In this document: positions 21,421 through 23,916 of the stretch, piece after piece
Position numbering within the stretch: position 1 is the first letter of the stretch
Layout: the number at the start of each line of letters is the position of its first letter
Assembly: GCA_017559855.1 (NCBI GenBank)
Contig: JAFYQP010000002.1
Coordinates: forward strand, 1 to 52,600
Length of the DNA: 52,600 bases
From: Clostridia bacterium
GTDB taxonomy: Bacteria; Bacillota; Clostridia; Oscillospirales; JAAYXM01
Direction: 5' to 3'
Program-made: the position numbers and the translations under genes
Notes under the pieces: generated by a model
What the model saw: the letters and a program-made list of their open reading frames with translations, nothing else
Database searches by the model: none
Told to the model about the DNA's origin: nothing

Positions 21421-21924
21421 ATGAAAATCGTAAATGAAAAAGGTAAACTTTTCGGTATTATCAATCCGGTTGACTTAATTGTTATTCTGGCAATTGTCGC
21501 CCTTGTTTTTGCATTGGGTGTAAAATTCCTCCGTACTCCTGTTGAGGCGGTTGTTTCCAACAAGCAGGAAATGGAAATCACTCTTCGTGTTCGCGGTGCA
21601 ATGCCCTCTTTAGTTGCCGCTACATCCGCTATCGAGCCGGGTGCAAAACTTGTTGCAGGTAACGATTATATCGCCGATGTAAGTGTTGTTTCCGTAAGCG
21701 TTGAAGATTACGTTTACACCGTTGCAGATGCAGAGGGTGTTACCGTCGAGACCGTTGATCCCATGAAAAAAGACCTTATTATAGTAATCAAGGGCGTAGG
21801 CTCTCCTTCCGATGCGATTTTAAAGGTTGGCAATCAGGAAGTTCGTACCGGCCGCGGCTTCATTTTCAAGACCAATACCGTTGAGGTTAACACAACTATC
21901 GAATCGGTGATTTTTAATGGATAA
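21421..21924 (+). CDS. DUF4330-domain membrane-anchored protein
   Basis: A 167-residue protein with one N-terminal membrane span (about 17-37) following LFGIINPVDLIVILAIVALV, the hallmark of the DUF4330 family. The remainder is a soluble, beta-rich extracytoplasmic part (ITLRVRGAMPSLVAATSAIE, GRGFIFKTNTVEVN). Function is unknown; members often sit beside glycosyltransferase or polymerase genes, as here. GGAGG lies six bases before the ATG. Its 3' end overlaps the polymerase gene by eight bases, so the two are translationally coupled. Confidence 0.85.
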   Translation: MKIVNEKGKLFGIINPVDLIVILAIVALVFALGVKFLRTPVEAVVSNKQEMEITLRVRGAMPSLVAATSAIEPGAKLVAGNDYIADVSVVSVSVEDYVYTVADAEGVTVETVDPMKKDLIIVIKGVGSPSDAILKVGNQEVRTGRGFIFKTNTVEVNTTIESVIFNG

Positions 21925-23491
21925 TATTTTGCTAAGTTGCTTTATTGCACGTTTTATCTCCTCTTGCAGGGATATATATTCAAAAAGTGTGCTGGCAAAG
22001 TTTTTTACAAAAACGAAAGAACTTTTCTTAAAGTCCGGCACTTATAACTTTTTCTGTGCACTACTTGCAATTCCCAGCACTCTTCCCTATTCAACCACTT
22101 ATAAAATCCTCTATAAGTTCAATACTTTCCTCTCTTCTATAGGCGACAAAATCCACCCCACACTGACAAAAAGTCTTGTCTACCGTACAACCAAGGCAAT
22201 CTCTGACAGTAAGTTCGTAGCAAACAGCAAAATTTTAAGTTTGTTAAAATCTCTTGGAATGCGTGGACTTCTTCTTATCGCTCTGGGTTTTACACTTCCT
22301 ATCGATTGGCTTATAAGAGACGTTATTAAGTTTGACGCACTAGGTTCAATTTGGGATGAAGGGCTTATGATTGTGTGCATCGGCTACATCTTCGCTAAAC
22401 TTATTTTCACAAACGGAAAGCCGTTAAAGCCGAGACTCACACCGGTAGATGCACCCGTTCTGCTCTTTATGTGCGTGGGACTTCTCATAATGTTTATGGT
22501 GTGTCCTGTTCCAAGTGTTGCTTTTGCAGGTTACCGTGCGGTATGTCAGTCAATGCTTTGGTTCTTCGTTGTAACACGACTGCTTCAGGATGACCGTGAC
22601 TTAAACCTTTTCTTCGGTGCACTTTGCATTATGTCTTTTGTAATTTGCCTCCATGGCATTTATCAGTACGTTGTAGGTGCCCCAATGCCCTCTCATTGGG
22701 TATCACAGGCGGAAACCGCCGATATGCGTACCCGTATTTACTCAATAACAGGAAGCCCCAACATCATGGGTGCTCTTATGGTAATGTGTGCACCGCTCTT
22801 TGCTGCTCTTGCATATTACGCAAAACCCCTTTGGGCAAAATGCCTTGCATGGGGTGCCACCGGCCTACTTTGCCTTGCGGTAATATTCACGTTCTCACGT
22901 GGTGCGTGGTTCGGCCTTGCAATTGCGGTTGTTATGTTCTGCCTTTTAGTTGATTTTAAACTCCTTGCAATCGCTCTTGTTGCGGTTGCGGCGGTAATCT
23001 TCTGTGTCCCCGCAATCGGTGACCGCATAGGATTTTTATTCACCTCAGATTTCACTCAGGCGACCAATAACGGCGGCAGAGCAGAGCGTTGGGCAACCGG
23101 TTACAATCTCCTCCGCACAAGTCCGGTTTGGGGCTTTGGTCTCGGTCGTTTCGGCGGTGCTATTGCAATGCAGAATCAGTCGGTTGAAGGTTTAAGATAT
23201 TTCTATATGGACAACTACTATATGAAAACCCTTGTCGAGATGGGTTACGTTGGCCTTTCTTTCTACATTTATCTTCTTCTTTCAAACGTGTATTCTTCAC
23301 TCCGTGGTCTCTTCCGTGCTAAAAAAACAAATCTTCGCATCCTTGCGGCAGGACTTTTCAGCGGTGCGGTGGGTGTTCTTGCCCATTCCTACTTTGAAAA
23401 TATATTTGAAGAGCCGTATATGAACTCCTATTTTTGGTGCATTGCGGCGGCAATTATGTATATCTGCTTCCTTCGCAAGAGAAAAGTATAA
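21917..23491 (+). CDS. O-antigen ligase/polymerase-like membrane protein (Wzy_C)
   Basis: A 524-residue integral membrane protein with about ten to twelve spans. The family signature is present: TFSRGAWFGLAIAV near residues 330-343 and TSPVWGFGLGRFGGA before a large outside loop. GSPNIMGALMVMCAP is also typical. Such enzymes join lipid-linked repeat units to each other or to an acceptor on the outer face of the membrane. The N-terminal 110 residues are an extra cytosolic or membrane-associated part with several basic helices. It is coupled to DUF4330 and faces away from the csaB operon, so probably polymerises the polymer those genes build. Confidence 0.85.
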   Translation: MDNILLSCFIARFISSCRDIYSKSVLAKFFTKTKELFLKSGTYNFFCALLAIPSTLPYSTTYKILYKFNTFLSSIGDKIHPTLTKSLVYRTTKAISDSKFVANSKILSLLKSLGMRGLLLIALGFTLPIDWLIRDVIKFDALGSIWDEGLMIVCIGYIFAKLIFTNGKPLKPRLTPVDAPVLLFMCVGLLIMFMVCPVPSVAFAGYRAVCQSMLWFFVVTRLLQDDRDLNLFFGALCIMSFVICLHGIYQYVVGAPMPSHWVSQAETADMRTRIYSITGSPNIMGALMVMCAPLFAALAYYAKPLWAKCLAWGATGLLCLAVIFTFSRGAWFGLAIAVVMFCLLVDFKLLAIALVAVAAVIFCVPAIGDRIGFLFTSDFTQATNNGGRAERWATGYNLLRTSPVWGFGLGRFGGAIAMQNQSVEGLRYFYMDNYYMKTLVEMGYVGLSFYIYLLLSNVYSSLRGLFRAKKTNLRILAAGLFSGAVGVLAHSYFENIFEEPYMNSYFWCIAAAIMYICFLRKRKV

Positions 23492-23497
23492 TACAAA

Positions 23498-23801
23498 CGC
23501 CACAGCCCTAAGGCGGTTGGTCACAGGGAGAAGACGGTTTTGAACTTATCTTTTCCGCCAATAGTGTATCAAAAAATCAGGCAATACGTCAGTATTACCT
23601 GATTTTTATTCTTTCTCTTGACAGAAAATCTCAATTTCAAAACTGCAAGGCACTTTAAAGAGTGCATTTTTTGTTTCAGAACAAGCAATAAAATCGCAGA
23701 TTATCCCGGCGGATATCAAGATTTTTTGTGCAGTTATGGACTAAAAATGCCTCTTTTAAGCGTTTTATCCCTGTGGCCAACCGCCTAAAAGGACTGTGGC
23801 G
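23498..23801. repeat. 304-bp element closed by long inverted ends (structured RNA or MITE)
   Basis: The two ends are complementary over most of 34 bases. CGCCACAG 23498-23505 pairs with 23794-23801, and the 18-base stretch 23512-23529 pairs with 23768-23785 (one G-T pair), with an internal loop between. Inside, AACTGCA 23641-23647 pairs with 23729-23735 and encloses GCACT/AGTGC; a strong hairpin lies at 23572-23607. No flanking target duplication is visible and no transposase is present. On the minus strand a 42-codon open frame (contains KNALFKVPCSFEIEIF) ends at 23606 against the hairpin; I do not recognise it. It could be a multibranched RNA, a miniature transposon or a gene relic. Confidence 0.6.
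23572..23607. terminator. Terminator-like hairpin inside the 304-bp element
   Basis: AAAAATCAGG pairs with CCTGATTTTT and AATAC with GTATT (23572-23587 with 23592-23607, one mismatch), loop GTCA. It is symmetrical, with A and T flanks. It could end transcription from the polymerase gene or from the minus strand. Confidence 0.65.
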
Positions 23802-23916
23802 TAATTTATTTACAAAATATTAACCCATTTGCATAAAAGTTAGTGTATAATAAGATAATCCAAGTGATATGAAAATTTGAGTGATTCGACTCGACGCAAC
23901 TTTACGGAGGTGTTTT

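Follow-up and report, generated by a model that had tools for sequence, protein, structure and literature searches.

Group IIC introns are associated with terminator hairpins and with attC sites. IS1272/TnSha1 of staphylococci (IS1182 family) also enters terminator hairpins, without primary sequence specificity; it carries a transposase gene and, on insertion, removes part of the hairpin and leaves the target unduplicated (PMC4923244). The Yersinia palindromic repeats YPAL, for which filled and empty sites are known, have targets that span or adjoin dyad symmetry and duplications of 3-26 bp, and RUP has TA as target and shares its ends with IS630-Spn1 (Delihas, PMC2229807). Analyzing the window, i.e. 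the whole stretch of 52,600 nucleotides from a Clostridia bacterium draft genome, we found a 276-bp element (23511..23786, + strand) whose target, like that of IS1272/TnSha1, is a terminator hairpin. Unlike IS1272/TnSha1, it carries no gene, retains the stem arms and duplicates 2 bp, and no IS1182 transposase was detected in ten carrier genomes (0/10). Like YPAL/RU-2 (168 bp) and the ERIC-type repeats, the family consists of short palindromic repeats that are mobile, non-coding and intergenic; it differs from YPAL in its 2-bp duplication, its specific use of terminator loops, its length of about 275 bp, its order-wide clostridial distribution and, probably, its sequence. With RUP and TA-ended MITEs it has in common small size, lack of genes, inverted ends and, in one of its two clades (clade B), a TA target, whereas its ends differ between subfamilies, IS630 does not track its carriers and clade A needs no TA. 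Inverted-repeat ends and target duplication, as well as the lack of a group II intron match in Rfam, distinguish it from group IIC introns. The features of bacterial MITEs in the broad sense are present: the element is short and non-coding, occurs in many dispersed copies, has terminal inverted repeats in all full copies and duplicates its target. In conventional MITEs, however, the ends are normally common and the inside differs, whereas in the present family the ends vary and the core stays. Given that defining features tested for derivatives of IS1182 (blunt loss of part of the hairpin without duplication, the transposase) and IS630 (a transposase associated with carriers) failed to appear, we place the family with the MITE/palindromic-repeat kind and describe it as working like a palindromic MITE with hairpin targeting. 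Searches of the open-licence literature yielded precedents for hairpin targeting and no paper recognisable as describing this family.

The ends of the element are precise. They were set by 16 full-length copies with unrelated flanks; in the alignment of copies, homology ends at GGCGG...CCGCC and one outer base pair (the outermost A/T pair, included in the 276 bp), beyond which the flanks are unlike in every copy. The 274-bp core GGCGG...CCGCC (23512-23785, + strand) matched the covariance model with 296.6 bits. Its consensus layout comprises an end stem P1, an arm P2 with an inner hairpin, a 3-bp mini-hairpin and an arm P3, all described here on the + strand. P1 (helix 1) is formed by the left terminal arm at 23512..23536 (GGCGGTTGGTCACAGGGAGAAGACG) and the right terminal arm at 23761..23785; 96% of its cells are paired and 9 of its 20 pairs show two-sided changes. 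P2 (23537..23643, helices 2-4), with the base helix GGTTTT...AAAAC, holds the inner hairpin at 23573..23607 (helix 4; AAAAATCAGG..CCTGATTTTT), whose stem covaries between subfamilies and which, carrying an A-tract and a T-tract, looks like a bidirectional intrinsic terminator. The mini-hairpin TGC-AAG-GCA at the four-way junction (23644..23652, helix 5, 3 bp) is paired in 100% of cells, and P3 (23653..23760, helices 6-9) is a long imperfect hairpin whose base helix has 17 pairs, 13 of them with two-sided changes. An inverted-repeat search recovered the terminal arms (23511-23539/23758-23786, 29 nt, 86%), the arms of the inner hairpin (23572-23587/23592-23607) and a pair of outer arms (23497-23509/23790-23802, 13 nt, 92%). 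Folded as RNA, the + strand reached -123.4 kcal/mol (z -12.0) and the - strand -132.7 kcal/mol (z -13.4), values reached by 0/100 dinucleotide shuffles in either case. The covariance model also gave high scores to the opposite strand of each element (e.g. 140 bits for the window copy), because the element itself is a diverged inverted dimer. The original prediction of a 304-bp unit with two paired end blocks around nested hairpins and without a transposase thus described real features, as both blocks and the nested hairpins are present and no gene lies inside; of the 304 bp, the inner 276 bp are the element, whereas the outer block, about 12 bp per side, belongs to a host terminator.

This terminator serves the upstream O-antigen-ligase-like gene (21917..23491, + strand; named from its sequence), which the element follows at 20 nt from the stop codon. 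The terminator's 5' arm (ACGCCACAGCCCT; 23497..23509, + strand) and its 3' arm (AGGACTGTGGCGT; 23790..23802, + strand), the latter followed by AT-rich AATTTATTT, lie outside the element and account for the outer 8-12 paired bases of the reported 304 bp. The possibility that the outer stem is part of the element was rejected: in other copies the inner stem is kept while the outer stem is different and copy-specific, and relatives hold plain terminators at the same place. Generally, the left and right flanks of one copy pair with each other, the left one usually having an A-tract and the right one a T-tract. Flank duplexes of the 16 full-length same-family copies averaged -17.5 kcal/mol, versus -7.9 kcal/mol for mismatched flanks (permutation p 1e-5), and 13/16 copies had a copy-specific terminator stem, i.e. 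their own duplex lay below the 5th percentile of mismatched pairs. In an independent set of 33 copies of other genera the values were -17.0 and -8.5 kcal/mol (p 5e-5), with 23/33 copies having such a stem. Flanks that are unlike among copies and pair within each copy indicate that an intrinsic terminator was already there and that its loop received the element. Among group-A copies with enough flank, and considering genes of at least 100 codons, a gene 3' end lay within 150 nt of the element in 28/30 copies, mostly at 15-50 nt; genes ended at both sides in 14 of those 28, and the remainder showed no orientation bias (7 left only, 7 right only).

Comparison of filled and empty sites agreed with this placement. 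Each same-family relative has one O-antigen-ligase orthologue (that of G007 is split over two contigs), and in G002, G003, G004, G007 and G008 its stop codon is followed by a plain hairpin. At the 3' end of the glutamate dehydrogenase gene the element is present in G003, while G002, G005 and the genome of the window carry plain terminators; at the 3' end of an SDR gene it is again present in G003, with plain terminators in G005 and in the genome of the window (in the window itself, at about 49.1 kb). Five of these plain terminators were checked by folding; as the empty sites are from other species whose terminator stems have diverged, they are positional and not base-for-base empty alleles. 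In G005 the element stands behind the O-antigen-ligase gene as it does in the window, with different terminator arms. The two insertions (G005:C33:92593 and window 23512) belong to two genera and also differ in their downstream neighbors, and the shared site reflects either an ancestral insertion or a recurrent target.

Insertion is accompanied by a 2-bp target duplication. The two bases outside the outermost pair were identical in 12/16 copies versus 4.5 expected (p 1e-4), e.g. CA/CA in L047 and L049, TA/TA in L048 and AA/AA in L027 and L055. Besides being short, the duplications are biased towards A/T. That of the window copy is imperfect (TA on the left, AA on the right) and therefore no duplication was seen in the original reading of this sequence, an absence that the copies as a whole do not support. 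Reading the flanks of 80 copies and assigning groups from end sequences revealed two clades. Group A, which includes the window, occupies terminator loops with duplications TT, AA and others; group B has ends of type GAGTCGAACCC and shows no terminator pairing (own flanks -7.4, mismatched -7.2, p 0.29). The 2-bp duplication was found in 17/33 group-A and 26/46 group-B copies, and in group B it was TA in 21 of the 26 matching copies. An inner hairpin with A4+/T4+ tracts was present in 40/49 group-A versus 10/46 group-B copies, indicating that copies living in terminators tend to have the terminator-like hairpin. In many group-B copies (L233-L284) the end sequence is GGGTTCGACTCCC, which is similar to a tRNA gene's T-arm, a likeness that may reflect descent, mimicry or chance.

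A DNA search of the window's own genome (1.58 Mb) matched the element on some 30 contigs, corresponding to about 15 separate insertions at unrelated sites, a count that combines the left ends of two subfamilies with deletion derivatives. Many of these copies lie at contig ends, where a repeat that interrupts draft assembly is expected. Further copies were found in the same-family relatives G002-G005 and G008, and a pattern scan of named genomes detected the element in Oscillospiraceae/Clostridia metagenome bins, among them bins from goat and water buffalo. Across the order, whose members are gut bacteria, the covariance model, which was built from the copies described here, found it in 107/394 genomes and 56/168 genera (E up to 0.001). 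Four candidates were scored per genome, which makes the copy numbers minimum values, and among the weak matches some may be false; strong matches were mostly full-length (270-278 bp). Phage and plasmid collections held no DNA similar to the element, and the 37 matches to an exact pattern in viral contigs are attributed to chance because none of them scored with the covariance model; carriage by phages or plasmids was therefore rejected. The dispersed copies and the comparison of filled and empty sites indicate that the element is mobile, which is the outcome that the original prediction had tied to copies at unrelated sites.

The fold is kept by compensatory change. RNAalifold of 15 copies gave 88 pairs, 37 of them with two-sided compensatory change. 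When this structure was held fixed, shuffles had 24.2 such pairs on average, and 95.0% of cells paired versus 83.3% in shuffles; 0/500 shuffles reached either observed value. Sliding the partners by 1-3 columns reduced the covarying pairs to 6-14. The number of further pair types was not distinctive (67 vs 64.9, reached by 151/500 shuffles). In an alignment of 86 copies, whose fitting to the structure biases it in that direction, 66/88 pairs showed at least three Watson-Crick types. Conservation among 47 genomes, with one copy per genome for most, was 0.53 and 0.45 bits/column in the end arms and 0.77-0.90 in P2 and the junction region; the best-conserved spots include P2 and the mini-hairpin at the junction. 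The ends are thus the least conserved part, yet complementary, and the core is conserved. The original prediction had treated scattered copies and covarying stems as exclusive outcomes, the former meaning a transposon and the latter an RNA; each of them was observed, and it is their exclusivity that does not hold.

Such covariation would be explained if a structured RNA were the selected unit, e.g. a 3'-UTR stabiliser or the RNA of a retroelement, with RNA-based spread and RNA selection behind the compensatory changes. The strong multibranched covariation, the location in transcribed 3' ends and, in the model-fitted alignment, slightly more G-U than A-C cells (316 vs 220, this alignment being biased towards G-U) are consistent with it. 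Were the RNA of one strand selected, however, that strand should show clearly more G-U pairs than A-C mismatches, and the 64 pairs that were predicted for each strand independently contained 8 G-U and 16 A-C cells; moreover, the two strands are equally stable when folded (means of -107.2 and -107.3 kcal/mol), orientation to genes is unbiased and the element has no matching family in Rfam (none above gathering score), by which a known RNA family was rejected. We therefore regard selection for an RNA as improbable. As G-U is not clearly favored on either strand, a palindrome acting at the DNA level, or one maintained by template-switch correction, is likelier than an RNA gene, the numbers being small. 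Correction of imperfect palindromes by hairpin template switching is an established bacterial process, and it could produce the compensatory changes as a mutational by-product, conserving a fold that is not needed. This explanation is compatible with mobility and accords with changes that are almost purely Watson-Crick and without strand preference, but it leaves unexplained why 56 genera have kept this particular multibranched layout, the junction motifs (GGTTTT, AAAACTGC..GCA) and a length of about 275 bp, and correction alone should drift to a perfect palindrome; we consider it rather doubtful. A gene relic, proposed from a minus-strand frame, was rejected: the frame has 43 stop-free codons in the window, among copies the longest minus-strand frame without a stop spans anywhere between 40 and 86 codons, and the alignment of copies contains single-base indels. 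Of the initial choice between a multibranched RNA and a MITE with a relic, mobility and the conserved multibranched fold remain, whereas the RNA gene is not favored and the relic is not supported.

The element might instead be an ordinary MITE, mobilised through fixed terminal inverted repeats and descended by internal deletion from a DDE insertion sequence that is missing from these assemblies; its terminator preference would be inherited from that sequence, as for IS1272. The inverted ends, the 2-bp duplication and the dispersed copies fit this view, and IS1272/TnSha1 provides the precedent for targeting of terminator hairpins (PMC4923244). In searching for a mobilising enzyme, we found no rve transposase in six carrier genomes, no DDE_Tnp_1 transposase in ten, and no Y1 transposase (Y1_Tnp) in G003, G005, G010, G034 and G050. 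IS630 (DDE_3) was absent from carriers of the window's family; it occurred in 28/394 genomes of the order and was no commoner in carriers (5/107) than in non-carriers (23/287). Consequently, rve/IS30/IS3-type, DDE_Tnp_1 (IS4/IS5), IS1182, Y1 and IS630 enzymes, being absent or unassociated in the genomes searched, were rejected as mobiliser, and no autonomous insertion sequence sharing the ends was found among the transposase families searched in these draft assemblies. A degenerate Y1-transposase relic occurs in the window's genome (L148, G000:C40:23643-23843), with no copy of the element nearby. Draft assemblies lose multi-copy insertion sequences and the donor may simply be missing from them. 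Nevertheless, an ordinary MITE normally has common ends and differs inside, whereas here the ends are least conserved and the core is conserved order-wide; length and multibranched fold are kept across 56/168 genera, and four tested transposase families are absent from the window's own family. We thus judge an ordinary MITE of this origin to be unlikely.

Taken together, the element is probably one long, diverged palindrome of fixed length (about 275 bp), a non-coding and non-autonomous mobile DNA that is moved in trans. For this trans-moved palindrome we infer that a transposase or recombinase supplied in trans would cut with a 2-base stagger and would recognise the conserved core together with the end stem, folded or palindromic, and not any fixed end sequence. 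In clade A the enzyme would prefer extruded or palindromic target DNA, hence terminator hairpins, while clade B would choose TA. Because of the element's own bidirectional terminator-like hairpin, entry into a terminator may cost the host little, and this harmless niche would let copies persist. It is possible, albeit less than likely, that these elements represent a class recognised by a conserved folded structure (cruciform, single-stranded DNA or RNA) instead of their end sequence and ancient in one bacterial order, in which one clade is a terminator-loop specialist with its own terminator to stay neutral, and that the mobilising enzyme is of a new type. Terminators would offer an almost cost-free landing site; if an element enters their loops and supplies a terminator in exchange, selfish DNA would have here a clear example of niche specialisation. 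It is unusual for a family to be dispersed by movement and, across a whole order, to covary in an internal fold, and this makes it testable whether DNA shape can take the place of end sequence in transposition. In practical terms, the family lies at many contig breaks of the window's draft genome, and its hairpins can be mistaken for regulatory RNAs or plain terminators.

Several copies depart from the full-length form. In three tiny derivatives (L067, G000:C3:6536; L075, G005:C9:62341; L125, G005:C9:53623) the left and right ends are joined and nearly all of the inside is deleted; they are still positioned in terminator loops and look like slippage products of the palindrome. Two independent right-end remnants of 33-35 bp (L045, G000:C41:50852-50886; L046, G000:C24:3312-3344) have the common inner boundary TT(T)AAGCG, each lying exactly in a terminator loop with GAC/GTC flanks, and this type is possibly a unit that moved by itself. 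A solo AAAAATCAGGTAATAC..GTATTACCTGATTTTT-like hairpin occurs outside the element at three loci of the window's genome (L044, L062, L063), and these copies are decayed elements or else gave rise to the inner terminator. Finally, the left ends of L052 (G005), L098 (Clostridia bin RGIG2055) and L101 and L112 (Clostridia bin RGIG1828) run directly into sequence that is unrelated or into another terminator hairpin, joins which suggest that the inner hairpin is exchanged internally between copies.
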